Below, piece after piece: positions 1,561 through 52,060 of a DNA stretch of 64,000 nucleotides (position 1 is the first letter of the stretch; every line of letters begins with the position of its first letter). The stretch is from Candidatus Iainarchaeum sp. (GTDB taxonomy: Archaea > Iainarchaeota > Iainarchaeia > Iainarchaeales > UBA10219): the NCBI GenBank assembly GCA_018304425.1, contig JAGVWE010000005.1, positions 153,534 through 217,533 on the forward strand, written 5' to 3'. The position numbers and the translations under genes are program-made. Below the pieces are notes generated by a model that saw only the letters and a program-made list of their open reading frames with translations, made no database searches and was not told the origin of the DNA.

Positions 1561-1634
1561 TATTTATGTCCCATCGAGCCCTTCAGGCGAGATGGGACGA
1601 CGTATCGTGTGCAGCCGCCACCTTCAGGCGGCTA
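1561..1634 (+). repeat. Two-hairpin dispersed element, copy A
   Basis: Begins TATTTATG, then hairpin 1 (TCCCATC 1569-1575 with GATGGGA 1591-1597; inner GCC/GGC stem flanked by tandem GA/GA), a linker CGACGTATCGTGTGC, and hairpin 2 (AGCCGCC 1613-1619 with GGCGGCT 1627-1633). It ends one base from the tRNA-Ala discriminator. On the minus strand its ATAAATA end acts as the likely TATA box of rpe. Copies B, C and D are at 12451, 36004 and 52003. Confidence 0.8.
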
Positions 1635-1706
1635 TGGACTGGCGGGGAATCGAACCCCGAGTCTCCGCGTTGCGAACGCGGCGTCTTACCATTCGACTAC
1701 CAGCCC
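1635..1706 (-). tRNA. tRNA-Ala (anticodon CGC)
   Basis: A 72-base cloverleaf on the minus strand. The acceptor stem GGGCTGG/CCAGTCC contains the G3:U70 wobble pair that marks alanine tRNAs. The anticodon stem CCGCG/CGCGG encloses TTCGCAA (anticodon CGC), and the T arm is CGGGG-TTCGATT-CCCCG. The discriminator is A. CCA is not encoded and no intron is seen. Copy A of the dispersed element starts immediately after its 3' end, and a hairpin array lies immediately upstream. Confidence 0.95.
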
Positions 1707-1707
1707 A

Positions 1708-1899
1708 AGGGCTTTTTACAAAAGCCCTGCGAAAAGGTGCCATTCTCACGAATGGCACGGCCTTTTTACAAAGGGTTTGCGACCTTGTCTCCCCCTGGGA
1801 GACGAGGCCCCGAAGACAAAGTCTTCGGGGAAATGCCCTGTGCATTGCACAGGGCTGGCTCGGCCTTTCGGCCTCGCATCTGGGCAGCCGTTGCCCAGA
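1708..1899 (-). other. Array of eight consecutive hairpins, possible structured RNA
   Basis: Back-to-back inverted repeats fill this gene-free stretch: 1708-1728 (9-bp stem), 1737-1758 (9 bp), 1761-1774 (5 bp), 1787-1803 (7 bp), 1808-1830 (10 bp), 1835-1855 (9 bp), 1862-1873 (4 bp) and 1879-1899 (8 bp). Loops are 3-5 bases. Read on the minus strand, three loops are GNRA tetraloops (GTGA, GTAA, GAAA), which favours that strand as RNA. A minus-strand TATA-like box (CTTAATAAA, about 1925-1933) could start a transcript near the first hairpin and run on into tRNA-Ala. I could not match it to RNase P RNA or SRP RNA. Confidence 0.6.
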
Positions 1900-1925
1900 C
1901 TGCAAGATAACTGAAACCAAAGGAA

Positions 1926-1933
1926 TTTATTAA
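1926..1933 (+). promoter_or_regulatory. TATA box for the HerA-like ATPase gene
   Basis: TTTATTAA is centred about 25 bases before the ATG at 1955, consistent with a leaderless archaeal transcript. The same A/T-rich block may also serve the minus strand toward the hairpin array. Confidence 0.6.
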
Positions 1934-1954
1934 GGGTTAACATTAATATAAAGC

Positions 1955-4900
1955 ATGCCGGATGGAGAGGGGAAGGACGCGGTAGCCGCTGGTTCGGGGG
2001 AGAAGCCCAGGCCCTTGGGGGCAGGGGAGCGGGTGGTGAAGCTCAAGGCCGCGCCGAAGACCGACCTCTTTGAAGAGGTCTTGACCGGGAAAAGCCATGA
2101 AGAGCAGTCCCTGGACGAGCTCTCGGAGGCCGAGGAAAAGAGGGCCCAGGAAGCCGAGAAAACCGTGGCCACCAAGCCGGGCAGCGGGGCTGCGCCGGTG
2201 GCGGGGGCGGAAATGCCGGCGCCTGTTCAGGCTCGCCGCGGGAGCCCTCGGAAGGCTGCCCCTAAAATCAGGGTACGCAAGAAGGGGGTTGAAGAAGCCG
2301 GGGCCGGCGTTGCGTCGAGTGAGGGCGGGGACGACGATGACGAGGAAGACGAGCCAGGGGAACCGAAGCCGCCCCTGGACATCGAGGAAGGCGATGACTT
2401 AAGTGCCGGCGACTGGAATGACTTGTTCAAGGAGGGAGACACCCGGGAGGAAGGCATCAAGGCGGCGCAGGCCCTGCCGGAGGCAGGGGCCGGGGAAGCG
2501 GGGTCTTCGGCGGGCGAAGAAGGACCGGTGGAGGCAAAAACCCCGCAGCCCAGCAAGGAGGAAATCCGCAGGGAGTTGATTGCCAGGACCGTTGCGGCCG
2601 GCCAAGGGGATTTGACTCCCTTGAAGGAGGGGTTGCCGCTCAAGTTCTTGGAGGACCCGGAGAAGGGCAACGTGTTCATTGGCCGCAAGAAAAACATTTG
2701 GAAGAAGTACGGGTATGAGGGCGCGTTGCTGGTTGGAAAGGTAGTGGAAGAAGAGTTCAAGGAACGGCACGTCTACTTGGACTCGTTGAACCCGCACGTG
2801 GTGTTCGTTTGCGGGGCCCGGGGTTCGGGTAAATCGTATATCATGGGGGTCATGGCCGAGGAACTCGCGCGCAAGAACAAGAACGTGGGAACGGTGGTCA
2901 TTGACCCGGTTGGCGTGTTTTGGAGCATGAAGTACCCGAATAAGGAGGAAAAGGAGCTCGCGTTGATGCCGGACTGGGGCTTGCAGCCGGAGGGCCTGGA
3001 CAGCTTGCGCGTGTTCATCCCAGAGGGCATCAAGAGCCAGACGCCTAAGGAGACCTATGACGCTACCTTCACCATGCAGCCCAGCCTCTTGACTTCGGAT
3101 GACTGGTGCCTGACCTACGGCATTGACCGGTTCAGCCCCACGGGCCTCTTACTGGAAAAGACGCTGAAGAAAGTCGAGTTGGGGTATGAGAACCTGGATG
3201 GCAAGAAGTTCCCAGCCCGCAGGCGGTCTTATTCCCTGGATGACCTCATTGCCTGCCTGGAAACGGATGCGGAATTGAATTCGAGGGACAAGGGGTACAA
3301 GCAGGACTCCATTCGTGCCCTGGTTTCCCGATTTGAGGCCGCCAAGAACTGGGGGATTTTCAGTGATAGGGGCACGCCCTTGGTGGAAATCAGCAAGGAA
3401 GGCCAGTTAACGGTCATTGACACGAGTTTCCTGGACGACAATGTCACGGCCCTGGTCATCGGGATACTGGCGAGGAGGCTGTTGGCGGCCAGGAAGCTGT
3501 CCACGCGGAAGGAGGCCGCCAAGAAGTTCCAGGAAGAGGAGGGGGTTGACGTCCTGGAAACGGATATTCCGCCTACCTGGCTGTTCATCGACGAGGCGCA
3601 CACCCTTATCCCGAGTGGCAACGTCAAGACCCCGGCCACGCATGCCCTGGTCGAGTACGTGAAGCAGGGGCGTCGACCGGGTTGTTCCCTGGTGTTTGCC
3701 ACGCAGCAGCCTTCGGCCATTGACACCAAGGTGTTGAGCCAATTGGATGTGATGGTCACCCACAAGCTGGTGTTCGACGACGACATCAAGGCCATTTACA
3801 AGCGCAGCCCGACCATCGTGCCCTTTAAGTACAAGAAGCCGAGTTTCGTGAAGACCCTGCCGATTGGCACGGCGCTGGTGGGGGATCGGACGGAGGAAAC
3901 GAGCCGCGCCTTCATCATGAAAATCAGGCCCCGGTTGTCCCAGCACGAGGGCCGTGAGGCGGAGACCACGGAGCGTTCCGTGGAGTTGGGGGCCAAGCAG
4001 GTGGAGCAGTTGGCGGTGAGCATGTTGTTGCGCCGCCTGGAAGAAGAGGGCGAGACCAGCATCGAGACCGTGGAGAAGAGCGTGCAGGTGCTTAACCAGA
4101 AGTACAAGAGCACAGCCGACGCGGAGAACGTGCTCGCGATGCTGAAGCGGCATGGACTTGTAGTGGACGAGGAGTTCGTGCGGTTGAAGGAGTACGTGGA
4201 GAAGGAAGAGGGAACCGGGAAACCGGCGGCAGCCAAAGCCGGCGAGGAAAGCCCCGTGGAAGCGGAAGAAGAAAAGGAGGCCGAGGAAGAGGCCCAGGAA
4301 ACGGCGGGGGAGGAAAAACAGGGGAAACCCGTCCCCGAAGCCGTGGAAGCGGGCTTCGGCGGGCAGACCGAGTTGCTGGCCTTGCCTGCCCGCGTGAACC
4401 AGCAGGCGGCGCAGCGCGTGGTGGATGGCCTGCGGCACAGGAAAGTCCTGGGCTTGCTGGGCAGCGAGGAAGTCATCGAGGACCTGCAATTGAAGTATGT
4501 CACGATTTGGCGCGTCAAATACGATGTCTACAACCAGCGCAAGGAATTCATTGCCCGGGAATGCTTCGTTAATTCCATGAGCGGGGAATTCATCCACTTC
4601 TTGAAGGACCGGTTCGTGGAAAGCAAGGGCTTGAAGGAAGTGTACGAGTTGGGCGAGGACGAAATCCAGTTCGTGCGCCTGCTGGGCCGCAAGGAGATGT
4701 CCTTACAGGAAATCGTGAAGCACACGCTGTTGGACGAGAAAAAAGTCCGCCCCGTCCTCGACAAGCTGCACTTCAAACGGTTGCTGGGCAAGACCAAGAA
4801 GAACAACGAACTCCATTACTGGCTGTTGAAGGAGTTTGACTTGCCGCCCCATGAAAGGCACGACCTCCTGCAGTCCATCCGGAACCTGCCGTTCGTGCGC

Positions 4901-5092
4901 GCGGAGGCCCTGGCCAAGGAACGCGAAATCTACGGCCGGAAGGAAATCCCCGAGGTCCTGGGCAAGCTATGGAAAAACATTCTGGTGCACAAAATCGAGG
5001 AACTCCACTGGCCCATCTGGCAGGCCACGTTGAAGGAAGGCCAGCGCACCCGCAAGGTCGGCATCGACGCAGTTACCGGGAAAGCGGTTTAG
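1955..5092 (+). CDS. HerA/DUF87-family ATPase with long acidic N-terminus
   Basis: A 1045-residue P-loop ATPase. Residues 1 to about 240 are low-complexity and acidic/Ala/Pro-rich. The ATPase core carries Walker A GARGSGKS (about residue 287), Walker B WLFIDEAH (about 542) and a following FATQQPSAID segment typical of HerA/VirD4-like DUF87 pumps. A second charged linker (about 740-790) precedes a C-terminal alpha-helical, winged-helix-like region ending VGIDAVTGKAV. HerA proteins act in DNA-end resection or DNA translocation, usually beside nurA; no nurA, mre11 or rad50 is nearby, so its partner is unknown. The 3' end overlaps the convergent acetyltransferase gene by four bases. Confidence 0.85.
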   Translation: MPDGEGKDAVAAGSGEKPRPLGAGERVVKLKAAPKTDLFEEVLTGKSHEEQSLDELSEAEEKRAQEAEKTVATKPGSGAAPVAGAEMPAPVQARRGSPRKAAPKIRVRKKGVEEAGAGVASSEGGDDDDEEDEPGEPKPPLDIEEGDDLSAGDWNDLFKEGDTREEGIKAAQALPEAGAGEAGSSAGEEGPVEAKTPQPSKEEIRRELIARTVAAGQGDLTPLKEGLPLKFLEDPEKGNVFIGRKKNIWKKYGYEGALLVGKVVEEEFKERHVYLDSLNPHVVFVCGARGSGKSYIMGVMAEELARKNKNVGTVVIDPVGVFWSMKYPNKEEKELALMPDWGLQPEGLDSLRVFIPEGIKSQTPKETYDATFTMQPSLLTSDDWCLTYGIDRFSPTGLLLEKTLKKVELGYENLDGKKFPARRRSYSLDDLIACLETDAELNSRDKGYKQDSIRALVSRFEAAKNWGIFSDRGTPLVEISKEGQLTVIDTSFLDDNVTALVIGILARRLLAARKLSTRKEAAKKFQEEEGVDVLETDIPPTWLFIDEAHTLIPSGNVKTPATHALVEYVKQGRRPGCSLVFATQQPSAIDTKVLSQLDVMVTHKLVFDDDIKAIYKRSPTIVPFKYKKPSFVKTLPIGTALVGDRTEETSRAFIMKIRPRLSQHEGREAETTERSVELGAKQVEQLAVSMLLRRLEEEGETSIETVEKSVQVLNQKYKSTADAENVLAMLKRHGLVVDEEFVRLKEYVEKEEGTGKPAAAKAGEESPVEAEEEKEAEEEAQETAGEEKQGKPVPEAVEAGFGGQTELLALPARVNQQAAQRVVDGLRHRKVLGLLGSEEVIEDLQLKYVTIWRVKYDVYNQRKEFIARECFVNSMSGEFIHFLKDRFVESKGLKEVYELGEDEIQFVRLLGRKEMSLQEIVKHTLLDEKKVRPVLDKLHFKRLLGKTKKNNELHYWLLKEFDLPPHERHDLLQSIRNLPFVRAEALAKEREIYGRKEIPEVLGKLWKNILVHKIEELHWPIWQATLKEGQRTRKVGIDAVTGKAV

Positions 5093-5817
5093 GCCTTTCC
5101 CTTGGCGTCCCTGGCCTTGAGTTCGACCCTGGCCTTGTCCACTACCTGGGCTTGGGTAACGCCTTTGACGAGCTTGTCCGCGGGCAGGAAGCCCTGGATG
5201 CTTTGCGCCGTGACCCAGGTGTGCGCCCCGACCAGGGTACCGGGAGAGGTAACGACGTTCGCACCGAGCCGGGCGTAGTCGCCGAGAATGCAGCCGAACT
5301 TGTCCGAACCCGTGGAAAGTTTCTCGCCCCTGATTTTCACCTGCACGACCTGCTGGTCAAAGCGCCGGTTGCCAAGGATGGTGCCGGAACCGATACGCGT
5401 CCCTTGTCCAAGGACGCTGTCGCCGACGAAGCAGTTGGTGCCGATTTTCGCGCCGTTGAAGAGGAGGGCGTTCTTCATCTCGACGCCCTTGCCGATGACG
5501 CAGCCGTTGCCGATGACGGTCACGGGCCGAATCCAGACGTGGGGGCGGATGGTGACGTTCTCGCCGATGATGCACGGCCCCTCGATGACGGTGAAGGGCT
5601 CGACTACCGTGCCCTTGCCGATGACGACGTTGCCCTTGATGACGACAGTTGGGTGGACTTCGCCCTCGATGCGGGAAGCGCCAGGGTTGACCAGGGAATT
5701 CTTGCCTTCCACCATTTCCCAGGGGTGCCTGAATTTCTTCAACTCCTGGAGGGGGCAGGCGGAAAAGTCTTCGAAGTAGTAGTCGAGGCCCCCTTCCTTC
5801 AAAACTTTTGGGTTCAT
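5089..5817 (-). CDS. Left-handed beta-helix acyltransferase, GlmU C-terminal-like (glucosamine-1-P N-acetyltransferase)
   Basis: A 242-residue hexapeptide-repeat protein (runs such as GKGTVVEPFTVI, GNGCVIGKGVEMKN, GSGTILGNRRFD) ending in a basic tail. It is the third gene of an operon after glmS and glmM, joined by an ATGA overlap, so acetylation of glucosamine-1-P to GlcNAc-1-P is the likely reaction. Family GlmU enzymes and their archaeal counterparts usually carry an N-terminal nucleotidyltransferase; here only about 40 residues precede the helix. UDP transfer must therefore come from another protein. A sugar-nucleotide acetyltransferase of different specificity remains possible. Confidence 0.8.
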   Translation of the reverse strand: MNPKVLKEGGLDYYFEDFSACPLQELKKFRHPWEMVEGKNSLVNPGASRIEGEVHPTVVIKGNVVIGKGTVVEPFTVIEGPCIIGENVTIRPHVWIRPVTVIGNGCVIGKGVEMKNALLFNGAKIGTNCFVGDSVLGQGTRIGSGTILGNRRFDQQVVQVKIRGEKLSTGSDKFGCILGDYARLGANVVTSPGTLVGAHTWVTAQSIQGFLPADKLVKGVTQAQVVDKARVELKARDAKGKA

Positions 5818-7202
5818 GCACCAATCACCTTCCGGATTTCCGATGCAATGGACTGCGCAAGCTTACTTATTTCGGTTTGGTGCTTGCCTTCAATCATGAC
5901 GCGCGCCAGGTTCTCGGTGCCCGAGTAGCGGACCAGTACGCGGCCCTCGGAGCCCAGCTTGCCCTCTACATAATGGATTCTTTCCTGCACGCCCTCCATG
6001 GCCTCGAAGGGCCGTTTTTCCCTGACCTTGAGGTTGACCAGCACCTGGGGATAGGCTTTCATGCACCGTGCCAGCCGGGAGAGGGGCTGCCGCTTTTCGC
6101 ACAGGAGCCGCAGCAACTGGAGGCCCGTGATGATGCCGTCCCCGGTGGTCGAGTACTCGTGGAACACGAGGTGCCCGGATTGCTCGCCGCCAAGCACGAA
6201 ACCGCCCCTGCGCATCTCGTCAATGACGTACTTGTCTCCCACTTGCGTGACCTTGACCTGGAGGCCTGCCTGCCTCATGGCCTCGTGGAAGCCCAGGTTG
6301 GCCATGACGGTTGAGACCACGGTGTCGCGGGCCAGCTTGCCCTTGGCCTTCAAGTCCAGGGCCATGAGCGCGAGTAAATGATCGCCGTCCACCAGTTTTC
6401 CCTTTTCGTCGCAGACGATGATGCGGTCGGCGTCCCCGTCCAGGGCAATGCCCAAGTCGGCTTTCTGCCTGCGGACTTCCCGTTGCATCTGCTCCGGGTG
6501 CAGGGCACCGCAGTTGAGGTTGATGTTCAGGCCATCTGGCTCGGTGTTCAGGGAAACCACTTGGGCGCCGAGCTCGGAAAAAATGTAGGGCGCGATGTGG
6601 TAGGCCGCGCCATTGGCGCAGTCCAGGACCACTTTGAGGCCCTGCAGGCTGAGATTGTCAATCGAGGACTTGCAGAACTCGATGTAGCGGCCCCGGGCGT
6701 CATCGATGCGGAAGGCCTTGCCGATGTCGTTGCCCGTGACCTCTCCCGAGTCAAAGCCGTTGGAGTTGACGAGCTGTTCGATCCGGTCTTCGAGGTCCTC
6801 GCCCAGCTTGTAGCCGGCGTGGTCGAACACCTTGATGCCGTTGTCGTGCGCGGGGTTGTGGGAAGCCGAAATCACGATGCCCGCGTCCGCGTTCATGGAC
6901 TTGGTCAGGTGCGCGATGGCGGGCGTTGGCATCGGGCCCACCAGGAAGACGTGCGCGCCCTGGGAGACGATGCCGGAAGTCAACGCGGTCTCAAGCATGT
7001 AGCCGGACAAGCGCGTGTCCTTGCCGATGACGATTTTGGGCTTGCCTTGCCGTTTCTTGTCCGCGCGCTGGAGGACGGTTGCAACGGCTTTGCCCACGCG
7101 CAACGCGATTTCCGGCGTCATGGGGTAGACGTTCGCTTTTCCCCGGATGCCGTCGGTGCCGAAGATTTTCCCGTTCCCGTTGTCGTTCAAGGAGGACATC
7201 AT
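5814..7202 (-). CDS. glmM: Phosphoglucosamine mutase
   Basis: A 462-residue alpha-D-phosphohexomutase converting glucosamine-6-P to glucosamine-1-P. It has GTDGIRG near the N-terminus, the phosphoserine loop ISASHNPAHDNG, the metal loop DGDADRI, the sugar-binding GGEQSGH and the phosphate-binding RYSGTENLARV near the C-terminus. Placement between glmS and a GlmU-like acetyltransferase supports glucosamine rather than mannose or glucose specificity. It overlaps both neighbours by four bases, indicating translational coupling. Confidence 0.93.
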   Translation of the reverse strand: MMSSLNDNGNGKIFGTDGIRGKANVYPMTPEIALRVGKAVATVLQRADKKRQGKPKIVIGKDTRLSGYMLETALTSGIVSQGAHVFLVGPMPTPAIAHLTKSMNADAGIVISASHNPAHDNGIKVFDHAGYKLGEDLEDRIEQLVNSNGFDSGEVTGNDIGKAFRIDDARGRYIEFCKSSIDNLSLQGLKVVLDCANGAAYHIAPYIFSELGAQVVSLNTEPDGLNINLNCGALHPEQMQREVRRQKADLGIALDGDADRIIVCDEKGKLVDGDHLLALMALDLKAKGKLARDTVVSTVMANLGFHEAMRQAGLQVKVTQVGDKYVIDEMRRGGFVLGGEQSGHLVFHEYSTTGDGIITGLQLLRLLCEKRQPLSRLARCMKAYPQVLVNLKVREKRPFEAMEGVQERIHYVEGKLGSEGRVLVRYSGTENLARVMIEGKHQTEISKLAQSIASEIRKVIGA

Positions 7203-8965: not shown

Positions 8966-9017
8966 GGGGGTTGCACCGCAAAATAAGAAGCAATGGAACT
9001 ATTCTGGGGCATTAGAG

Positions 9018-9025
9018 TTTAAATA
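9018..9025 (-). promoter_or_regulatory. TATA box for glmS operon
   Basis: TATTTAAA on the minus strand lies 53-60 bases before the glmS ATG, predicting a short untranslated leader. Confidence 0.55.
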
Positions 9026-9127
9026 CCCCGTTGAAAGCCCATTACAGCCAGTATAAGCCTGGGCATAACGGAAACCCCAAGGCTTTTAAAGACTAACTAC
9101 ACTAATACTAACTAACCCATAATAGTA

Positions 9128-9134
9128 GTATAAC
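9128..9134 (+). promoter_or_regulatory. TATA-like box for the HTH/S-layer-like gene
   Basis: GTATAAC is centred 25 bases before the GTG at 9156. A second box, CTTTTAAAG near 9081-9089, lies farther upstream. Confidence 0.4.
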
Positions 9135-9155
9135 AAAACTTGTAATGGTGAATGC

Positions 9156-10112: not shown

Positions 10113-10138
10113 AAACGACCCAGGCGCCTTCAGCTGGC

Positions 10139-10876: not shown

Positions 10877-10898
10877 AGTAAACCCATCTAATCAAGTC

Positions 10899-11259: not shown

Positions 11260-12378
11260 ATGGCTGGCCTGAAACTGGGAAGCGTTTTCGGCATTGGCGT
11301 CGAACTGCACCCCACCTTCGTGTGGCTGTTTGCAGCGCTCGCCGTGTTCCTGCTGGTCTTTGACGCCGCGAGTTTCGTGCCCAGCATGGTCATGCTGGTC
11401 TTCCTCTTCGTCAGCGTGTTCGTCCACGAGTTGTTCCACTCCCTGGTCGCCTTGTCCAAGCACGTGCGCGTGGAAAAAATCGTGTTGCTGCCGATTGGCG
11501 GCATCTCCATGGCCGAGGAAATGCCTGAAAAGCCGTTGGACGAGTTCCTGGTGGCCATCGCCGGGCCGTTGTTCAATTTCCTGGTCGTGTTCCTCATCCT
11601 CTTCCTGGTAGCAGTGGTGCCCGGCCTGCCGTGGCCGCACGCGTTGTTCTCCGGCCAAGCCGATTACGCCCTGGTCGAGGAAGCCATGCTGGCCTATCCC
11701 CTCTTCGCCTTGCTGTGGGTGAACCTGATGCTGGGCGCGTTCAATCTCTTCGTGCCCGCGCTGCCCATGGACGGGGGAAGGGTGTTGCGCGCGCTCCTCT
11801 CCATGGTCATGGGCCACGCCAAGGCCACCGCGCTTGCCTCCAAGATTAGCCTGGGCTTTGCTTTCCTGATGGCGTTGCTGGGCTTGCTGGGCGGCAGCCT
11901 CATGCTGGTCGTCATCGCGGTGTTCCTCTACTTTGGCGCCACCTATGAACGCGACCTCACGGCCATGAAGGAAACCATTCGCGGCGCGGACTACGGGAAA
12001 ATCGTGTCGAAAAAGTTTTCCGCCGTGGACGAGGGCATGCGGTTCGAGGACGCGCTCAAGGCCATGGCCGAAAAAAACACGGGCCTGCTCCTCGTGAAAG
12101 GCGGCACGGGCATTGGCTACCTCTCGACCGATGACTTGCTGGCCGTGGAGAAATCCAAGCGCCTGGGCGCCTTGACCGTTGGCCAACTGGCAAAGCGGCT
12201 GCCGGTCTTCGAAGCCGGAACCCCGGCCGAGAAGCTCATGGGCTTCTTCGCCTCCAAGGGCGTGCCCGTGGTCGGCATTTCCAGGGGCAAAAAGCTGTCC
12301 GGCCTCCTCTTCCAAGCCGATTTGGACGCCCTCTACCAATTGACAAAGTTGAAAAAGAAGTTCGATTTACAGTATTGA
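11260..12378 (+). CDS. Site-2-type membrane metalloprotease (M50) with C-terminal CBS region
   Basis: 372 residues. About five to six transmembrane helices carry the zinc motif HELFH (about residue 60) and the second motif LPMDGGRVLRAL (about 170), where the usual NPxDG has become PMDG. Residues about 240-372 are soluble and resemble a CBS pair (AVDEGMRFEDALKAM, GYLSTDDLLAV, KGVPVVGIS). The family cleaves transmembrane segments of anchored regulators, with CBS domains sensing adenylates; the substrate is unknown. All catalytic residues are present. Confidence 0.88.
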   Translation: MAGLKLGSVFGIGVELHPTFVWLFAALAVFLLVFDAASFVPSMVMLVFLFVSVFVHELFHSLVALSKHVRVEKIVLLPIGGISMAEEMPEKPLDEFLVAIAGPLFNFLVVFLILFLVAVVPGLPWPHALFSGQADYALVEEAMLAYPLFALLWVNLMLGAFNLFVPALPMDGGRVLRALLSMVMGHAKATALASKISLGFAFLMALLGLLGGSLMLVVIAVFLYFGATYERDLTAMKETIRGADYGKIVSKKFSAVDEGMRFEDALKAMAEKNTGLLLVKGGTGIGYLSTDDLLAVEKSKRLGALTVGQLAKRLPVFEAGTPAEKLMGFFASKGVPVVGISRGKKLSGLLFQADLDALYQLTKLKKKFDLQY

Positions 12379-12450: not shown

Positions 12451-12510
12451 TATTTATGTCCCGCCGCAGGCGGGACGACGTATGCGGTGCCGGCTGACGC
12501 CTCGTCAGCC
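12451..12510 (+). repeat. Two-hairpin dispersed element, copy B
   Basis: TATTTATG (12451-12458), hairpin 1 TCCCGCC/GGCGGGA (12459-12475, loop GCA), linker CGACGTATGCGGTGCC, and hairpin 2 GGCTGACG/CGTCAGCC (12492-12510). Stem bases differ from the other copies but keep pairing. It abuts the first base of tRNA-Ser exactly. TATTTATG could act as a TATA box for a precursor with a leader of about 30 bases. The rest of the gap (12379-12450) shows only a GC-rich stretch. Confidence 0.8.
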
Positions 12511-12595
12511 GCGGAGATGGCGGAATCTGGTAAACGCACTCGCCTCGAGAGCGAGAGCCCGCAAGGGCGCGTGGGTTCAAATCCCACTCTCCGCG
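12511..12595 (+). tRNA. tRNA-Ser (anticodon CGA)
   Basis: An 85-base class-II tRNA. Acceptor stem GCGGAGA/TCTCCGC, anticodon stem CTCGC/GCGAG around CTCGAGA (anticodon CGA), long variable arm GCCCGCAAGGGC, T arm GTGGG-TTCAAAT-CCCAC, and discriminator G as in serine tRNAs. CCA is not encoded and a T run follows the 3' end. Repeat copy B ends directly at its 5' end. Confidence 0.94.
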
Positions 12596-12622
12596 CTTTT
12601 TCCTGCCTTTGGCTGGAAACAA

Positions 12623-36003: not shown

Positions 36004-36078
36004 TATTACCGCCCCATCGAACCCCTTTGGGGCAAGATGGGGCACGTATAGCGCGCAGCCGCCGCTTTCGTGCGGCTA
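36004..36078 (+). repeat. Two-hairpin dispersed element, copy C
   Basis: Begins TATTACCG, then hairpin 1 CCCCATC/GATGGGG (36012-36042, with inner CCCC/GGGG stem), linker CACGTATAGCGCGC, hairpin 2 AGCCGC/GCGGCT (36057-36077). The first stem pair is C-G here against T-A in other copies, a compensatory change. Hairpin 2 contains part of the ftsZ stop codon, and the opposite end supplies the secE TATA box. Confidence 0.72.
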
Positions 36079-37269
36079 CCCGGTGAACTCAATGCCCAGG
36101 TCAAGCGGTCCCTTGGGGACCTTCAACTCGCCTTTCTCGGCGTCGAATTCCTCGACGTTGTCCAGGTAGGGAAACCTTCCCCCGGCGATGACGACCATGG
36201 CCTGGATCTGGTTCCTGGGAATGTTTTCGTCGATCATGGCGCCCCAGATGATGTGCGCGTTGGGGTTGATTTTGGCCGAGACCGCTTCCACGATCATTTC
36301 GGCCTCGCGCAGGGTCATGTCGGTTCCGCCCACCACGTTGACCAGGGCCCGGTTGGCGCCGGAAATGTCGACGTCCAACAGGGGTGAGGTCAACGCGTTT
36401 TCAACGGCTTCCAAAGCCCTTGAATCCGAGGCCTTCTCGCTCCTGGACTCGCCCAAGCCAATCATGGCCGCTCCCCCGTTGTGGAGGATGGTGCGCAGGT
36501 CCGCGAAGTCGAGGTTGATGAGGCCTGGCTTGGTGACCATTTCGGTGATGCCCTTGACGGCGTTGGTCAGCACCTCGTCCGCGACCTTGAACGCGGTGTT
36601 CAACGGCAGGTCCGGCGCAATCTCGAGTATCTTGTCGTTGGGAATGACGATGACCGTGTCCGCGTTCTTGCGGAGCCTGGCCAGTCCCTGGAGGGCGTGC
36701 TCCATGCGAGTCCTGCCTTCCACCGTGAACGGCAGGGTGACGACTCCAATTGTGAGCGCCTTGACTTCGGACGCGATTTCCGCGATGATGGGTGCAGCCC
36801 CGGTTCCCGTGCCGCCGCCCATTCCACACGTTATGAAGATGAGGTCGGAGTCCGCGAAGGTCTCGATGAGTTCGTCCAGCGATTCCCGCGCCGCGGCTTC
36901 TCCAACCGTTGGGTCGGAGCCCGAGCCCAGACCTCTGGTCAGCTTGCGGCCGATGAGGACTTTCCGGTCAGCGGCCACCTTCAACAGGTCCTGGGCGTCC
37001 GTGTTAATGGCGTAGGTTTCCGCGCCAATGATGCCGACTTCGCTCATGCGGTTAATCGTGTTGCAGCCGCCTCCCCCGCAGCCCACCACTCTAATGCGGG
37101 CCTGGGCTTTTTCCAGCAACTCGATGAGGTCCTCTTCCTTGTAATTGGTCTTGGCCTTGGGCTTGCCCTTGACCGCGTCGATTTTGTCCTTCAATTTGTC
37201 CATTTTCTTCTCAGCCTCGATGCGTTTAACGGCCTTGTTCACCAGCGAAGTGTCCTTGTCCAGTATCAC
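36076..37269 (-). CDS. ftsZ: Cell division protein FtsZ
   Basis: 397 residues. An N-terminal charged extension of about 50 residues precedes the tubulin-like GTPase: RVVGCGGGGCNTINRM, the signature GGGTGTGAAP and DLIFITCGMG. The protein ends LGIEFTG after a short tail. It forms the cytokinetic ring. The start is GTG at 37269 preceded by GGGGGTC; a TATA box lies at 37321-37331. The stop codon overlaps repeat copy C. Confidence 0.95.
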   Translation of the reverse strand: MILDKDTSLVNKAVKRIEAEKKMDKLKDKIDAVKGKPKAKTNYKEEDLIELLEKAQARIRVVGCGGGGCNTINRMSEVGIIGAETYAINTDAQDLLKVAADRKVLIGRKLTRGLGSGSDPTVGEAAARESLDELIETFADSDLIFITCGMGGGTGTGAAPIIAEIASEVKALTIGVVTLPFTVEGRTRMEHALQGLARLRKNADTVIVIPNDKILEIAPDLPLNTAFKVADEVLTNAVKGITEMVTKPGLINLDFADLRTILHNGGAAMIGLGESRSEKASDSRALEAVENALTSPLLDVDISGANRALVNVVGGTDMTLREAEMIVEAVSAKINPNAHIIWGAMIDENIPRNQIQAMVVIAGGRFPYLDNVEEFDAEKGELKVPKGPLDLGIEFTG

Positions 37270-43472: not shown

Positions 43473-43587
43473 CCCCCGACGGGGCGGGAAACAGGGAAAA
43501 ACGAAAGCACGGAGTCAAGCAAAAAAACAGGGTTTTTGAGGGGGCAAAAAATGCTCATCCTAAAAAAGAAATAATGCCTGGGAAGGA

Positions 43588-43597
43588 ATTTAAAGGG
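43588..43597 (+). promoter_or_regulatory. TATA box for the pyrB-F operon
   Basis: AATTTAAAGG is centred about 33 bases before the pyrB GTG in the carA/pyrB divergent region. The region also holds A-rich runs (43515-43575) that could carry the carA promoter. Confidence 0.6.
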
Positions 43598-43624
43598 ATG
43601 CCCCCCATAATCTAGAGGGTTGTA

Positions 43625-46314: not shown

Positions 46315-47635
46315 GGTGGTCTTGAAGGGCGGGCGGGTGTTCACCGGAAAGAAGTTCGAGGCCGTGAACGTTGGGGTCAGCAAGGGCAGGATTACAGCCG
46401 TTGGGAAAGGGGTTCGAGGAAAAAAGTCAATCGATTGCAGGGGCCGGTGGGTGCTGCCCGCGGCCCTGGACGTCCACGTCCATGCCCGCGACTTCAAGGA
46501 GGCCGCGAAGGAGACCTGGCGCTCGGCCTCCAGCGCGGCCGCGCATGGGGGAGTGGGTTGTTTCTTCGACATGCCCAACAACCAGGGATTTGCCATGAAT
46601 TCCCTGGCAAGGCTCCGGCAAAAGGAGTCAAGGGCCTTGAGGGACTCCCTGGTCGACTTTGGCTTGTATGCGGCCTTGGACGAGGCCTCCGTCGAAAACG
46701 CCCGGGCCCTGGCAAAGGACTGCGTGGGCTTCAAGCTCTACATGGCCGAGTCCACGAATGCCCGGGGGGCTAAGGGCCAGGAATTCCTGGAACGCGCGTT
46801 CCAGGCCGTGGCCAAGACCGGAAAAATTCTGGTAGTCCACGCCGAGGATCCCGAAACGATTGAACGCTTTGCCCGGCACGCCGGCAAGCGCACCGACCCC
46901 TACGCGCACTATGACGCGCGCCCCAACCTCTCGGAGGCCGTGGCCGTGCACAAGGCCCTGTCATTGGCGGAACGGTTTGGCACGCGGCTCCACGTCACGC
47001 ATGTCTCCACGCATGAGGCCCTGCCATTGATTGCGTTGGCCAAGAAAAAGAAGGTGGATGTCTCGGCTGACTGCTCGTTCACGCACCTCACGTTCAGCTT
47101 GTCCGACCATGAGCGGCACGCGCACTGCATCAAGGTCAACCCCCCGGTGAGAACGGAGGCCGACCGAGAAGCCCTGTGGATTGCCTTGCGGAAGGGCGTC
47201 ATCGACTTCATTGCCTCCGACCATGCACCCCACCCGAAGAAGGAAAAACTCGGCCCCAAGGGAAAGAACGTGCCCTCGGGCCTGCCGTGGCTCGATTTCT
47301 TCTTGCCACGCCTGCTGGCCCTTGCCAAGAAGCGGAAGGTACCGGTGGAAGAGGCGCTGGCCTGGGTCACGGAGAAGCCGGCCAAGCGGTTCAAGGTAAA
47401 GGACAAGGGGAGAATCGCGCGGGGCTTTGACGCGGACCTGGTGGTGTTCGACCCGCGCGCGGGGAGCCGCGTGACCGCGAAAGCCATGCACTCCAAGTCC
47501 AAGTGGCATCCCCTGGAAGGCGAGAAACTGCCTGGAAAGGTCGAAACAACCCTTATAAGGGGTTGCGTGGTGTTCGACAAAGGCAAGCCCTTAAGAAGGG
47601 GCTTCAAGGCCCGGAGGGTGGCGTTGGATGGATGA
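46304..47635 (+). CDS. pyrC: Dihydroorotase
   Basis: 443 residues of the amidohydrolase family. Metal ligands lie in LDVHVHARD, carboxylated-lysine segment VGFKLYMAES, VVHAEDPET, LHVTHVSTHEA and IASDHAPHPKKEK. The usual GxID before HVH reads AALD, a mild change. It cyclises carbamoyl aspartate. Overlaps pyrK by 11 bases and pyrE by 8. Confidence 0.93.
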   Translation: MECEVVLKGGRVFTGKKFEAVNVGVSKGRITAVGKGVRGKKSIDCRGRWVLPAALDVHVHARDFKEAAKETWRSASSAAAHGGVGCFFDMPNNQGFAMNSLARLRQKESRALRDSLVDFGLYAALDEASVENARALAKDCVGFKLYMAESTNARGAKGQEFLERAFQAVAKTGKILVVHAEDPETIERFARHAGKRTDPYAHYDARPNLSEAVAVHKALSLAERFGTRLHVTHVSTHEALPLIALAKKKKVDVSADCSFTHLTFSLSDHERHAHCIKVNPPVRTEADREALWIALRKGVIDFIASDHAPHPKKEKLGPKGKNVPSGLPWLDFFLPRLLALAKKRKVPVEEALAWVTEKPAKRFKVKDKGRIARGFDADLVVFDPRAGSRVTAKAMHSKSKWHPLEGEKLPGKVETTLIRGCVVFDKGKPLRRGFKARRVALDG

Positions 47636-48248
47636 CAAGGCCAGGTTGTGCGCGGAGTTGGCGCGGATTGGCGCCGTGAAGTTCGGGGTGTTCACGTTGA
47701 AGTCGGGGTTGAAGAGCCCCGTGTATGTTGACCTGCGGTTGCTGGTCTCGCATCCGGACGTGCTGCGGCTGGTCGGCAAAGCGATTGGCGGGATGGTCAA
47801 GGCCGCGAAGTTCGACCGCGTGTGCGGCATCCCCTACGCCGCGATACCCATTGCAACCGCGGTCTCCCTTGAGTTCGGCTGGCCCATGATTTACCCCCGC
47901 AAGGAAGTCAAGGACTATGGCACGAAGAAAGCCATTGAGGGCGAGTTCAAGGCAGGGGAAACCATTCTCGTGATTGACGACTTGATTACGACGGGGCTCA
48001 GCAAGGTCGAGGCCATCGCGCCCCTGGAAGCCGCGGGCCTGAAAGTAAGGGACATCGCGGTCTTGATTGACCGCGAGCAGGGCGGCAAAAAGGAACTGGA
48101 AGCGAAGGGCTACCGGTTGCACGCCGTGCTGGCGATTTCCGAGTTGCTGGAGTCGCTCAAGCAGGCGAAGAAAATCGACGAGCCAACCTACGCGCAGGTC
48201 AAGGCCTATTTCAGGGACCCGGGCGCCTGGCAGAAGGCGCACCCATGA
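47628..48248 (+). CDS. pyrE: Orotate phosphoribosyltransferase
   Basis: 206 residues. Type-I PRTase fold with the PRPP loop TILVIDDLITTGLSK, the YPRKEVKDYG flexible loop and RVCGIPYAAIP. It joins orotate and PRPP to OMP. The TGA stop overlaps the ATG of the micro-ORF cassette that separates it from pyrF. Confidence 0.94.
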   Translation: MDDKARLCAELARIGAVKFGVFTLKSGLKSPVYVDLRLLVSHPDVLRLVGKAIGGMVKAAKFDRVCGIPYAAIPIATAVSLEFGWPMIYPRKEVKDYGTKKAIEGEFKAGETILVIDDLITTGLSKVEAIAPLEAAGLKVRDIAVLIDREQGGKKELEAKGYRLHAVLAISELLESLKQAKKIDEPTYAQVKAYFRDPGAWQKAHP

Positions 48249-48298
48249 AACCCTTTTGCTGCGCAAAAGCGTTTACGGAAAGCAGGGTGAACCCATGA
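48245..48298 (+). other. Hairpin/micro-ORF cassette, copy 1 (pyrE-pyrF junction)
   Basis: ATGAAACCCTTTTGC begins a 17-codon frame (MKPFCCAKAFTESRVNP) whose ATG overlaps the pyrE stop (ATGA) and whose TGA overlaps the pyrF ATG. Bases 48253-48269 form the hairpin CTTTTGC/GCAAAAG, followed by GCGTTTACGGAAA. The same arrangement, with a stem one base pair longer, occurs at 60821-60880. Confidence 0.55.
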
Positions 48299-49158
48299 CC
48301 GAGTGGAGCGAGTCATTGGAGCACGCGGCCAAGCAAAACAAGAGCCTGGCCTGCTTTGGCTTGGACCCCGTCATCGAGCGGATTCCCATCAAGGAAGGCA
48401 ACGCGGAACAGAAGATTGCGGGTTTTTACGGGGAAATCCTGGACGCCTGCGAGGCCGAGGACTGCCTTCCCGGGGCTGTAAAGCCCAATTACGCGTTCTT
48501 CGCCCAGTACGGGTTCGAGGGCCTGCGCGCGTTGAAAGCCGTGGTGGACCGGGCGCGGAAGACGAAGTTGCCCGTCATTTTGGACGCCAAGCGCGGCGAC
48601 ATCGGGAACTCGAGCAAGGCCTACGCCCACGAGGTCTTCGGCTTCTGGCAGGCCGACGCGGTTACTATCGCGCCCTACATGGGCTCGGATTCTGTGAAGC
48701 CCTTCATCGAGTTCTCCGAGAGACATGGCAAAGGCGTTTACGTCCTCAACCGCACGAGCAACGCGGGGGCCAAGGACTTCCAGGACCTGCCGGTAGGCGG
48801 CGGCAAGAAACTGTACTTGGTGGTGGCCGAGAAAATCGTGGAATGGGGCCTGCACGCGAAAGGCAACCTGGGCGCGGTGGTCGGGGCAACCTCTTTGGAC
48901 GAGCTCGCGGAAATCAATTCCTTTTACGCGAAAGCCAAGAACCCGGTGCCCCTGCTGATTCCCGGCGTGGGCGCGCAGGGCGCGAAGGCCGGGGACGTCG
49001 TGGCCGCGCTGAAAAAGGCTTCAAAGAACCTGGCCGTGCACCGCATCAACTCGTCGAGCGAATTGAATTACGCCTACGAAAAGCAGGGCACGAGCGACTA
49101 CGCCGGGGCCAGCGTGAAGGCGCTCAAGCACTTGAACAAGGACATCGGGTTGTTCTGA
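48295..49158 (+). CDS. pyrF: Orotidine 5'-phosphate decarboxylase
   Basis: 287 residues, the longer type-2 form. FGLDPVIERIP, the catalytic LDAKRGDIGNSSKAYA (Asp-Lys-Asp tetrad) and LLIPGVGAQGAKAGD are present. It yields UMP and completes the pathway. ATG 48295 is fixed by homology and by the coupled ATGA at the end of the upstream micro-ORF. Confidence 0.95.
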   Translation: MTEWSESLEHAAKQNKSLACFGLDPVIERIPIKEGNAEQKIAGFYGEILDACEAEDCLPGAVKPNYAFFAQYGFEGLRALKAVVDRARKTKLPVILDAKRGDIGNSSKAYAHEVFGFWQADAVTIAPYMGSDSVKPFIEFSERHGKGVYVLNRTSNAGAKDFQDLPVGGGKKLYLVVAEKIVEWGLHAKGNLGAVVGATSLDELAEINSFYAKAKNPVPLLIPGVGAQGAKAGDVVAALKKASKNLAVHRINSSSELNYAYEKQGTSDYAGASVKALKHLNKDIGLF

Positions 49159-49159
49159 C

Positions 49160-49906
49160 ATGGCGAGGCGAACCGTCGCCGGACTTTTCAGGGGCCGGAA
49201 ACCGCGGGCGTTGTGGGGCGGGGCAGGAAAAAGCGCGCGGGCCCGGTACAAAACCGGAAGGGGGAACATGCAGGCACGGTCTGTTCGGCACAGCCCCCGT
49301 GCAAAAGGCGTGAATGTCGCACTGGCATATCGGGAACTGATGGCCTTGGAGGAGCTCGAGAAGACGGGCGTATCGCCGAAGAAATACGATATCAATGGGG
49401 CAGGCCTCTCGACGACTCGGCCGCCGAGCAAACGCCATGTGCGGGCGCTTCGAGCGATGCGCAGTGGGGGCACCCATTGGGTGGTCGAGCATATCCTTGG
49501 CCCCATAGGAAGGAAAAGGTTCCGTCGGCTGGCCAGCGAATTGCCGGGCCTCAAGTGGGAGGAAGAGCATGAACAGCGGGATTGGTCGAAAATCTTTCCA
49601 CGGCGAGGGACACCGCGCTGGGAACACGCGAAGGAATGGGCAGGGCGGATAGTCGAAGAGGCCACGGAATTGAAAAAGGAACTGGATGAAAATTTCACGG
49701 CTTTCGCGATTGCAATCTATGAGTTGCCCGATGCTCGACGATACCGCGAAGTGAAAGACAACTTTTGGGGGACGCGAACCGAGGAAGAGGAGAGGACCCG
49801 GCGCATCAACGCCATCACCCATCACTCGAGGAGGCATGTCGGATTCCTTAATGGCTCGTTGACGGTTCTGATCGAGGAGGCGGGGAAATGGGCGGCAAGC
49901 AGATGA
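49160..49906 (+). CDS. Hypothetical protein
   Basis: 248 residues, basic N-terminus then mixed helical sequence (WVVEHILGPIGRKRFRRLAS, WEHAKEWAGRIVEEATELKK). No family was recognised. A second start at ATG 49268, preceded by GGGGG, would give 212 residues and drop the odd Arg/Gly-rich beginning. Codon choice looks less GC-biased at the third base than in pyrF, hinting at later arrival. It lies one base after pyrF and overlaps the LOG-like gene by 19 bases. Confidence 0.55.
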   Translation: MARRTVAGLFRGRKPRALWGGAGKSARARYKTGRGNMQARSVRHSPRAKGVNVALAYRELMALEELEKTGVSPKKYDINGAGLSTTRPPSKRHVRALRAMRSGGTHWVVEHILGPIGRKRFRRLASELPGLKWEEEHEQRDWSKIFPRRGTPRWEHAKEWAGRIVEEATELKKELDENFTAFAIAIYELPDARRYREVKDNFWGTRTEEEERTRRINAITHHSRRHVGFLNGSLTVLIEEAGKWAASR

Positions 49907-50433
49907 AGACCAAAATTGCGGTGGTGGGCTCGGCCGTGGACTGGCCGAAGAAGTCGGAGAAGCTGGCGCGGGAGCTGGGCCGCGAGATTGCCGCCCGCGA
50001 CTGTGTGCTGGTTACCGGCGCGACCACGGGCCTCACGTACGAGGCCGTGAAGGGAGCCAAAGAGCGGCGCGGGTTCGTGCTGGGCATCTCCCCGGCCGCC
50101 AGCGAGCAGGAACACGTGGAGGCCTATGGCAAGCCCACAGAGGGCTTCGACATAATCGTGTTCACGGGCGTGGGCTTGATCGGCCGCAACAGCACCATCA
50201 TCCGGACCGCGGACGCCGTGATAGTCGTTGGAGGCCAGGCGGGAACCCTGAACGAGTTCACCGTGGCCAGCGTCGAGGGAAAGGTCATCGGGGTGTTGAA
50301 GGGCAGCGGCCAAATCGCGGAAATGCTGCCGGAAATCGCACGGGCCTGCGGCACGGACGCCGGCAAACTGGTGGTCGAGAAAGAGCCGGCCCGGCTGGTG
50401 GCAAGGGTGCTGCAAAGGATTAAAAACCGGTAA
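49888..50433 (+). CDS. LOG/SLOG-family protein (TIGR00725-like, possible nucleotide phosphoribohydrolase)
   Basis: 181 residues, Rossmann-like: KIAVVGSAVDWPKK, VLVTGATTGLTYEAVKGA, and VVGGQAGTLNEFTVA, the variant of the GGGxGTxxE motif of lysine-decarboxylase-like (LOG) enzymes. Such enzymes can split nucleoside 5'-monophosphates into base and ribose-5-P. Position directly before AMP phosphorylase supports a nucleotide-salvage role, by inference. GGAGG twelve bases before ATG 49888 supports that start; ATG 49903 is in frame. Confidence 0.8.
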   Translation: MGGKQMKTKIAVVGSAVDWPKKSEKLARELGREIAARDCVLVTGATTGLTYEAVKGAKERRGFVLGISPAASEQEHVEAYGKPTEGFDIIVFTGVGLIGRNSTIIRTADAVIVVGGQAGTLNEFTVASVEGKVIGVLKGSGQIAEMLPEIARACGTDAGKLVVEKEPARLVARVLQRIKNR

Positions 50434-50455
50434 AACATTGTAAGTAGGGATACCG

Positions 50456-51991
50456 ATGCAGTACGTCCACAAGCTGAAGACCAAGTGCCTGGACTTGGAG
50501 GCCGGCAAACTGGTTGCACTCCTCCATGAGCACGACGCCAAGCAGCTCGGCATCCTGCCCCTGGACCGCATCGAAATCAGGAACCCGCTGACCGGCAAGG
50601 CGGTTGTTACCGTCGTGGACACCACCCAGACCATGGTGAGGGCAGGGGAAATCGGGATTTTCCGGGATGTTTCCGCGTCCCTGGACGGCTTCAAGGACCA
50701 CTGTGACCTCGACATCGTGGAAGTGCGCGTGGTGCCCCAGCCGCAGAGCGTGGGCTTCATCAAGAAGAAGATGGATGGCGTGAAGCTGGCCGACGCGGAA
50801 ATCAAGGCGATTGTGGCCGACATCGCGGTCAACAAGCTCTCGGAAATCGAGGCAACGGCCTTCGTTTCCGCGGTGTACATGCGGGGCTTCGACCTCGAGG
50901 AAACGGTTTCCATGACCAAGGCCCTGGTGGGCAACGGTGGCAGGATGCAGTTGAAGCACGGCCCGGTATTGGACAAGCATTCCGTGGGCGGCCTGAACGG
51001 CCGGGCAACCATGATTATCGTGCCCATCGTGGCCGCGGCCGGGTATTACGTGCCGAAAACCTCTTCTCGGTCGATTACTTCGGCGGCGGGAACCGCGGAC
51101 GCCATGGAAGTGCTGGCCTCCGTGAACCTCAGCAAAGCGGACATCAAGCGCATCACCGAGGAAGTGGGCGCGGTCATCACCTGGGGCGGCGCCGTGGACC
51201 TGGCGCCGGCGGACGATAAAATCATCAAGATCGAGCACCCGCTCTCGCTCGACCCCGAAGGGCAGGTGATTGCTTCCGTGCTCGCGAAGAAGGCCTCGGT
51301 GGGCGCGGAGTACGTCGTGATTGATTTGCCCATCGGCCCGGAAGTGAAAATCAAGTCCAAGGAAAGGGGCGAGGAGATGGCGAAGAAGTTCGTGGTCGTG
51401 GGCAAGGCCGTGGGAATGAAGGTAGAGGCCGTGCTGACGGACGGGAGGGCTCCCAGCGGCCCCGCGTTCGGCCCCGCCCTCGAAGCGCGGCACGTGCTTG
51501 AAATCCTGGAGGGCAAGGCCTGGAACAACCTGGCCGAGAAGAGTTGTGAGATGGCTGGAACCATGCTCGAACTCGTGGGAAAATGTAAGGACGGCGACGG
51601 GTACAAACTGGCCAAGGAAATCCTCGTCTCCGGCAAGGCCCTCGCCAAGATGAAGGAAATCATCCGCGCGCAAAGCGGGGGCACGGGCATCACCGCTTCC
51701 AAGGACGTGCCCGCGGCGAAATTGGTGGAAAGGATCTGCACCGACCAGGATGGGGAAATCGCCACCATCAACGTGCGTTCGCTCATCAACATCGCGCGCA
51801 TTGCGGGGGCGCCGGCCGACAAGCTGGCGGGGGTGTGGCTCCACGTGAGCGCGGAATCGAAGGTGAAAAAAGGGGGTTGCCTGTTCGAAATCCACGCCGA
51901 AAACAAGGAGAAGCTGGGCCTGGCCGTGAAGATTGCGAAGACCAGCCCCCTCATCGAACTGGAACGGTCGATTATCGAGAAGTTCGAGTGA
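50456..51991 (+). CDS. deoA: AMP phosphorylase
   Basis: 511 residues. An N-terminal archaeal-specific domain of about 85 residues is followed by the thymidine-phosphorylase fold: KHGPVLDKHSVGGLNGR (phosphate binding) and KTSSRSITSAAGTADAMEVL. It converts AMP plus phosphate to adenine and ribose-1,5-bisphosphate in the archaeal AMP pathway. The isomerase for the next step is at 37447. Its 3' end is 11 bases from repeat copy D. Confidence 0.93.
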   Translation: MQYVHKLKTKCLDLEAGKLVALLHEHDAKQLGILPLDRIEIRNPLTGKAVVTVVDTTQTMVRAGEIGIFRDVSASLDGFKDHCDLDIVEVRVVPQPQSVGFIKKKMDGVKLADAEIKAIVADIAVNKLSEIEATAFVSAVYMRGFDLEETVSMTKALVGNGGRMQLKHGPVLDKHSVGGLNGRATMIIVPIVAAAGYYVPKTSSRSITSAAGTADAMEVLASVNLSKADIKRITEEVGAVITWGGAVDLAPADDKIIKIEHPLSLDPEGQVIASVLAKKASVGAEYVVIDLPIGPEVKIKSKERGEEMAKKFVVVGKAVGMKVEAVLTDGRAPSGPAFGPALEARHVLEILEGKAWNNLAEKSCEMAGTMLELVGKCKDGDGYKLAKEILVSGKALAKMKEIIRAQSGGTGITASKDVPAAKLVERICTDQDGEIATINVRSLINIARIAGAPADKLAGVWLHVSAESKVKKGGCLFEIHAENKEKLGLAVKIAKTSPLIELERSIIEKFE

Positions 51992-52002
51992 GGGCGAACG
52001 AC

Positions 52003-52060
52003 TATTTATGTCCCATCGCAGATGGGACGACGTAGCGTGTGCAGCCGGCACTAGCCGGCT
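52003..52060 (+). repeat. Two-hairpin dispersed element, copy D
   Basis: TATTTATG (52003-52010), hairpin 1 TCCCATC/GATGGGA (52011-52027, loop GCA), linker CGACGTAGCGTGTGC, hairpin 2 AGCCGGC/GCCGGCT (52043-52060, loop ACTA). It lies between convergent deoA and ksgA; the ksgA TAG stop forms part of the hairpin 2 loop. Confidence 0.82.

Follow-up and report, generated by a model that had tools for sequence, protein, structure and literature searches.

What is the short sequence that recurs beside tRNA and protein genes in a 64,000-nt stretch of the Candidatus Iainarchaeum sp. genome (the window)? The original prediction described four copies, each with two covarying hairpins, and left three options: a small mobile palindrome, a processing signal or a regulatory RNA. 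A covariance-model search (E <= 0.001) of the whole genome returned 23 copies of a foldable repeat of ~60 bases, 5 of them within the window, and related genomes held further copies, so the family extends beyond the original four. For model building, three copies in the alignment (A3) had their hairpin 1 loop shortened by hand, and the resulting model found the full-length copies again. The repeat looks like an apparently new family in Diapherotrites, made of short mobile elements that encode no protein and can cap tRNA genes or occupy their introns.

The four copies were recovered where they had been placed (model matches at 1561-1634, 12451-12512, 36004-36078 and 52003-52061, each with E < 1e-12 genome-wide), all on the plus strand. 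Copy A consists of the box TATTTATG (1561-1568, seen in the sequence and as a model match), hairpin 1 with the stem TCCCATC/GATGGGA and a 15-base loop (1569-1597), CGACGTA plus linker (1598-1612), whose GTG could form a pseudoknot with CAC of the hairpin 2 loop, and hairpin 2 (1613-1633), the end of which adjoins the 3′ end of a minus-strand tRNA-Ala(CGC) gene (1634-1707). Read on the complement, the copy A box is CATAAATA, possibly the TATA box of rpe on the minus strand, a promoter role suggested by its sequence. Copy B has the same box TATTTATG (12451-12458, sequence and model match), hairpin 1 with the stem TCCCGCC/GGCGGGA (12459-12475), CGACGTA plus linker (12476-12490) and hairpin 2 (12491-12511), whose outermost pair includes the first base of tRNA-Ser(CGA), a gene starting at 12511. 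Copy C (36004-36078) carries the box TATTACCG (36004-36011), hairpin 1 with a 17-base loop (36012-36042), CACGTA plus linker (36043-36056) and hairpin 2 (36057-36077), and adjoins the stop codon of ftsZ (ORF 36076-37269, minus strand). Copy D (52003-52061) is made up of its box (52003-52010), hairpin 1 (52011-52027), CGACGTA plus linker (52028-52042) and hairpin 2 (52043-52060), and overlaps the stop codon of ksgA (ORF 52051-52887, minus strand); the hairpin-2 end thus meets the predicted tRNA or stop codon in all four copies. A fifth copy in the window, missed originally, lies on the minus strand (copy E, 56264-56329, model R2, E = 4.6e-10), with the box TATTACCA, a hairpin 1 with a 12-base loop, CATGTA, and a pseudoknot in which the linker TGCGTC pairs with GACGCA of the hairpin 2 loop.

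Across the phylum, the repeat was present in 21 of 87 genomes, all from a single Diapherotrites order, and the same fold was recovered throughout these 21. Copy number is patchy, at 62 (genome G040, 60% complete), 46, 21 (G013, complete) and 19 per genome versus 0 in most genomes of the order, the first three counts being from relatives of the source genome, and the best whole-genome model E-values reach 1e-26. Near-identical half-units (<=97% over short stretches) are dispersed among flanks that do not match. Searches of Rfam 15 at gathering and relaxed thresholds gave no family corresponding to the repeat, what matched being limited to tRNA, 5S and chance similarities below threshold, and among described prokaryotic palindromes none was found to fit, which bears out the earlier impression that no named family applies. 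A strict repeat pattern gave zero matches in IMG/VR viral contigs, and in the GTDB collection it matched only Diapherotrites, apart from two hits (L237 and L244) that were dismissed as chance, as the rest of the fold is absent from them.

One fold is common to all copies: the 8-base box leads into hairpin 1, then comes C(G)ACGTA, then hairpin 2, and the linker forms a pseudoknot with the hairpin 2 loop. The pseudoknot covaries as well and had gone unnoticed; loops range from 3 to ~60 bases, and subfamilies are marked by the TATTTATG box, by CACGTA/CACATA, or by TATTAYYG. A TATA box held between hairpin and start was rejected as a full explanation, since such loops break the spacing and the TATTAYYG subfamily has no TATA box. 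In a 9-copy alignment, both sides had changed in 9 of 13 pairs, and 98.3% of cells were paired versus 76.5% after shuffling; with 95 copies, double-changed cells numbered 333 versus 81 shuffled. The paired stem changes of the original prediction are therefore real, and covariation lies well beyond both shuffled and slid controls. None of the outcomes named beforehand as refuting that prediction came about: further copies exist, covariation is significant relative to controls, and a known family that matches was not found. The changes run nearly always from one Watson-Crick pair to another: element stems contain 3 G.U versus 4 A.C pairs, against 20 versus 1 in tRNA stems of the same genomes. 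Since G.U is no commoner than A.C, unlike in tRNA stems, the sequences point to both DNA strands being under constraint, not a single RNA, and selection on RNA structure, first proposed alongside a cruciform, is not favored. This near absence of G.U pairs had been overlooked.

Junction and direct-repeat counts were based on 182 copies. The hairpin-2 end lies within 4 bases of a tRNA end in 35 of these, and the box end in 0 of 182; in 23 of the 35 it meets the 3′ end of a tRNA on the opposite strand, and in 12 the 5′ end of one on its own strand. The hairpin-2 end is a precise junction. Its contact with a gene boundary, previously described as invariable, holds as a tendency and not for every copy: in the source genome, 10 of 17 strong copies touch a stop codon or lie no more than 4 bases from a tRNA end. 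Eight tRNA genes predicted to carry an intron, namely Ala-CGC, Cys-GCA (two genomes), Gly-TCC, Gly-CCC, Arg-CCG, Arg-GCG and Pro-TGG, have the hairpin-2 end at, or within 1 base of, the first base of the intron, and in G040 the predicted intron of tRNA-Cys is one whole head-to-head unit; the tRNA-Cys, Ala-CGC, Arg-CCG and Arg-GCG genes of the source genome are intronless. Judged by eye, several of these introns have a 3′ end that is able to base-pair with the anticodon region. Like archaeal bulge-helix-bulge tRNA introns, the element occupies the canonical position 3′ of the anticodon; unlike them, it is a copy of a dispersed repeat that is also found outside introns.

In 21 of 182 copies, versus 0-2 in controls, a direct repeat (16-mer, <=2 mismatches) starts flush with the hairpin-2 end, giving a MITE-like target duplication of variable length (~17-50 bp) in those 21, while 161 copies have no detectable direct repeat. 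For ordinary DDE transposases, duplication length does not vary in this way. Most copies are single or in tandem (20 pairs of tandem neighbors), and 9 head-to-head pairs lie within 250 bp, forming gene-free units of ~120 bp; neither this pairing nor the flush repeats had been reported originally. One unit (L204) is flush at both ends, with a whole tRNA-Gln on one side and a fragment of tRNA-Gln from T-loop to 3′ end on the other, and a whole tRNA with a displaced fragment at the far end was seen in a minority of copies (L204, L154, L144 and C3:228827). At C1:16011, the far repeat runs on as a synonymously recoded gene start, which is not what simple target duplication gives. No clean pair of empty and filled sites at one syntenic locus was found in related genomes, where flanks were too diverged; a region of G013 aligning partly with L261 contains a fragment of a tRNA and lacks the element, and its other flank is non-orthologous. 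A search for long-range attachment pairs in the source genome gave none that were useful.

Candidate mobilizing enzymes were searched for in element-bearing genomes. In the complete genome G013, RVT_1, Y1_Tnp, Cas1 and TnpB were all without match, PF07282 and PF01797 included, and one tyrosine recombinase was present, of the size of a host Xer; tyrosine recombinases were found in 8 of 8 genomes tested. Y1_Tnp also had no match in G040, whereas the source genome has one Y1 transposase gene, and its TnpB ORF is not a neighbor of the copy at C6:134693. Cas1 was absent from 9 of 9 element-bearing genomes tested, RVT_1 from every element-bearing genome among 53 searched, and no related autonomous transposon was found among the RT, Y1, Cas1 and TnpB families. 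Several origins were discarded on these grounds: a TnpB omega-RNA (a pseudoknot beside a guide), since rich genomes lack TnpB; IS200/IS605 ends, for want of tnpA/tnpB in G013 and of a TnpB ORF beside the C6:134693 copy in the source genome; a casposon or Cas1-made insertion, since the Cas1-family integrase is absent from the genomes tested; and a SINE-like retroposed element, since the element-bearing genomes searched have no reverse transcriptase.

The main rival is a role at the RNA level, in which hairpins and pseudoknot would be transcribed with their neighbor as its leader, trailer or intron and flag where a tRNA or mRNA is to be processed, stabilized or terminated. It draws on hairpin 2 lying directly against stop codons, the edges of introns and the ends of mature tRNAs, on the pseudoknot between linker and loop, a typical RNA feature, on the T-run that directly follows many copies in G040, as in a terminator, and on the TATTTATG box before tRNA genes, which could provide the TATA box for a start near ACGTA. 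We nevertheless consider it rather unlikely: the element occurs in both orientations relative to the gene, so that the RNA would come from different strands, its stems show no preference for G.U, the source genome has an RNase P RNA and most tRNAs carry no element, many copies do not adjoin an RNA gene, and the distribution is multi-copy and patchy. Chance hairpins, or ordinary look-alike terminators and promoters, have in their favor that hairpins often occur close to gene ends, as TATA boxes do near genes, but this reading, to which we give practically no credence, is refuted by the E-values, the covariation far above controls and the one shared fold.

Among readings that invoke DNA movement, small, non-autonomous integrative elements are a possible though not favored one; a tyrosine recombinase (the host's XerA, or an integrase in trans) would insert them, with direct repeats as att cores that restore the tRNA. 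Archaeal and bacterial tyrosine integrases are reported to insert at the anticodon loop, T-loop, 3′ end and 5′ half of tRNA genes (PMC8371274), and tRNA islands made by them (PMC8371274, PMC4383910) share with the element these places and the whole tRNA with a displaced 3′ fragment; the recoded start at C1:16011, as if the element carried its own gene end, and the tyrosine recombinases in 8 of 8 genomes also agree. The element differs from such islands in being ~120 bp and gene-free, without an internal integrase, in having many unrelated targets, and in occurring as an intron within the anticodon loop too; a core of its own would be needed for each target, yet a single family strikes numerous tRNA and protein genes, the tRNA is not restored where the element sits as an intron, and integrase genes are not consistently near. 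Far less probable are REP/BIME-like palindromes moved by a RAYT (REP-associated Y1 transposase), or IS200/IS605 ends. Palindromes tagged CGTC or GTAG are known among REPs (PMC3733652; 20-60 bp), and like these the element is intergenic, occurs in many copies and as head-to-head dimers and keeps perfect pairing while its stems change; the complement of the TATTTATG subfamily reads CGTC just before hairpin 1, and the source genome has its one Y1 gene. Unlike them, it has two hairpins with a pseudoknot and direct repeats, is archaeal and joins tRNA ends and intron edges precisely; the richest genomes, G040 and G013, lack a RAYT, the tag is not conserved (CACGTA/CACATA subfamilies lack CGTC), and copies are not consistently close to Y1 or TnpB genes.

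Of the three original options, mobile DNA is thus the better supported, and the element is probably a family of short, non-coding, non-autonomous, MITE-like mobile DNA, recent or decaying, at tRNA and gene boundaries. Like MITEs it is short and non-coding, with target duplication, and its head-to-head halves may correspond to their inverted ends; unlike MITEs, its ends are folded hairpins with a pseudoknot, its duplications vary in length and it has no known parent transposase. Rickettsia palindromic elements are likewise short palindromes in and beside genes; they insert in frame in proteins, and we know of no preference of theirs for tRNA boundaries. The short hairpin 2 and the pseudoknot presumably leave no room for the R''-L''-L'-R' layout of an integron attC site. 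In the MITE-like reading, the shared fold would be a half-unit, and a complete unit would comprise two half-units head to head (~115-185 bp), with boxes inside and hairpin 2 at both outer ends. The target would be joined at the hairpin-2 end, preferably at a tRNA gene boundary (3′ end, 5′ end, anticodon-loop intron site or T-loop) or a protein gene end; a target stretch of ~17-50 bp would often be duplicated, so that the gene hit stays whole, and the inserted element could act as leader, trailer, intron or promoter. Spread may occur by transposition or site-specific integration, with single-stranded DNA or a cruciform as the form recognized, by an enzyme acting in trans that could be the host Xer, another recombinase or one since lost. 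More tentatively, and with some doubt, the element may recognize the tRNA gene by that gene's own fold (acceptor end, T-loop, anticodon loop) and become a spliced intron in the anticodon loop, which would make it a living source of archaeal tRNA introns and of new tRNA leaders and trailers.

We know of no system in these archaea in which a DNA element is recognized via a single-strand fold, and a pseudoknotted, wobble-free fold recognized in this way would be unusual. The origin of archaeal tRNA introns is a long-standing open question; here a dispersed repeat sits exactly at the first base of the intron in several tRNA genes, and the predicted intron of one tRNA-Cys consists of it entirely, while the same tRNAs of a relative are intronless. 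If the element were shown to move, intron gain would become directly testable.

The four window copies of the element, a foldable dispersed repeat of about 60 bases, were located by inspection of the sequence where the original prediction had placed them, abutting tRNA-Ala(CGC), tRNA-Ser(CGA), ftsZ, and ksgA as it described. A covariance model built on nine copies (R1) recovered each of them at E < 1e-12. With a broader model that had 95 copies as input (R2), 23 copies were found at E ≤ 0.001 in the genome containing the window (G000; archaeal, 1.48 Mb, 7 contigs), including a fifth window copy at 56264-56329 on the minus strand. Repeat-bearing relatives with named records are listed as Candidatus Diapherotrites. 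The element was present in 21 of 87 genomes of the phylum, all 21 in one order, and absent from all 12 genomes of other families in the class. Copies per genome were 62 in G040 (only 60% complete), 46 in G033, 21 in G013 (one contig), 19 in G026, and 10 in G037, with zero in many close relatives.

Every copy has the same order: a box (TATTTATG, replaced by TATTAYYG in other families), hairpin 1 (7 pairs, loop usually 3 bases, with a longer insert in some copies), C(G)ACGTA or CACATA, a linker, and hairpin 2 (4–9 pairs). In the 95-copy alignment, two-sided changes were seen at 13 of 13 pairs, and double-changed cells numbered 333 against 81 in shuffles, a count biased towards the model to which the alignment was fitted; slid controls collapsed, and a 9-copy MAFFT alignment gave an agreeing covariation picture. 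The linker also pairs with the hairpin 2 loop (TGCG/CGCA, AGCTC/GAGCT, GGATT/AATCC, TGGC/GCCA, CAGATT/AATCTG). The longest complementary run averaged 3.75, compared with 2.81 when loops were reassigned among copies (highest mean in 2000 shuffles, 3.16), and at least 4 linker-loop pairs were formed in 57 of 93 copies (shuffled mean, 23.6). Linker and loop form an H-type pseudoknot, which is an addition to the original prediction.

Selection on one RNA strand should make G.U pairs common as intermediates. When hairpin 1 was kept in register by its conserved CCC/GGG core, 72 copies had 3 G.U and 4 A.C among 288 variable pairs (four per copy), whereas in the same sources the acceptor stems of 95 tRNAs had 20 G.U and 1 A.C among 560 (G.U against A.C, Fisher p = 0.008; 14 to 1 in G000 tRNAs alone). 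This is an indication and no proof, since counts are small and copies are related by descent and non-independent. G.U being rare and no commoner than A.C, pairing appears symmetric for both strands, which would fit palindromic DNA, whether as a cruciform or as either single strand, or RNA made from both strands.

The hairpin-2 end forms a precise junction. In 35 of 182 copies it lies no more than 4 bases from the end of a tRNA; in 23 of these it is the 3' end of a tRNA on the opposite strand, and in 12 the 5' end of one on the same strand. The box end, a built-in control, was so placed in 0 of 182. Eleven copies lie within predicted tRNA introns, whose limits are those given by ARAGORN, and the hairpin-2 end falls within 1 base of the first base of the predicted intron in Ala-CGC, Cys-GCA (G040, G026), Gly-TCC, Gly-CCC, Arg-CCG, Arg-GCG, and Pro-TGG. 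In the tRNA-Cys of G040, one head-to-head unit (two half-units, boxes inside) is the entire predicted intron; the Cys-GCA, Ala-CGC, Arg-CCG, and Arg-GCG tRNAs of G000 are intronless. At protein genes, the hairpin-2 end coincides with the stop codons of ftsZ and ksgA and with that of an ORF whose end lies at C3:229524. Upstream of tRNA-Ser, an ORF at window positions 11260-12378 gives a weak match, 60 residues long, of the site-2 protease-like (RseP) type.

Neighbouring pairs within 250 bp comprised 9 head-to-head, 20 tandem, and 3 tail-to-tail. A 120-bp head-to-head unit (locus L204) sits flush between a whole tRNA-Gln and a 3'-end fragment of it starting in the T-loop, and a similar unit (L261) is flush with two copies of such a fragment, one on either side; L154, L144, and a 71-bp insert behind tRNA-Leu(CAG) of G000 show the same arrangement. 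A repeat starting at the hairpin-2 end was found in 21 of 182 copies, compared with 0–2 when mismatched controls were used and 2 when offsets were shifted, and a few of the 21, in G040 tandem arrays, may be array units instead of target repeats. At protein genes, direct repeats measured 23 bases at L189, where the stop codon is part of the repeat, 27 at L195, 34 at C1:16011, and 48 at L196.

Several side observations were made. At G000 C1:16008-16076 (L013), a RecB-like nuclease gene has its 5' end duplicated around the element; past the 34-base identical core, the first codons, compared by eye, differ only at third positions, with the same amino acids. L261, L263 (both G033), and L314 (G013) carry a 25-base tRNA 3' fragment upstream of homologous genes, without a whole tRNA, perhaps an attachment-site remnant. 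Tandem arrays of the element on G040 C151, C146, and C126 (L160, L163, L162) have T-runs directly after hairpin 2, share the AT-rich spacer TTTATTGTAATCCAAAATTATATGCA, and resemble small promoter-hairpin-terminator units. Five G000 introns start with a hairpin of another type, CCTTTTTACAAAAGG, followed by GCGAAAA or GGGAAAA and a further hairpin. They are those of tRNA-Gly(TCC) (C1:296869-297037), tRNA-Asp(GTC) (C3:170023-170178), tRNA-Leu(CAA) (C4:77500-77643), tRNA-Ser(GGA) (C4:152360-152539), and tRNA-Pro(TGG) (C7:53910-54035). This hairpin type shares its layout with the element and could represent another family related to it; the tRNA-Leu(CAG) insert, at C3:228827-228918, consists of it and comes with 19 duplicated bases from the 3' end of the tRNA.

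A mobile element is favoured because of the precise one-end junction, flush direct repeats, inverted pairs, genome-variable copy number, and half-units that match well across copies whose surroundings do not. Tyrosine integrases target the anticodon loop, T-loop, and 3' end of tRNA genes, and pTN3-like integrases the 5' half (PMC8371274), the same places in which the element inserts. The units contain no gene. Searches of the complete genome G013 for reverse transcriptase, Y1 transposase, Cas1, and TnpB found none, and its one tyrosine recombinase is of Xer size; the mover would therefore be a host recombinase or an enzyme outside the searched families, or movement has ceased there. As the places hit are loops and stem ends of the folded tRNA, a natural guess is that folded single-stranded DNA would be recognised.

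The element is similar to REP/BIME elements, yet lacks the defining REP features tested, and to MITEs, yet no parent transposon is known for it; a non-exhaustive literature search, with subscription papers outside its scope, found no published description. We rate it as a new form within the kind of short palindromic mobile elements, and the link to tRNA introns is the part that could go beyond that.
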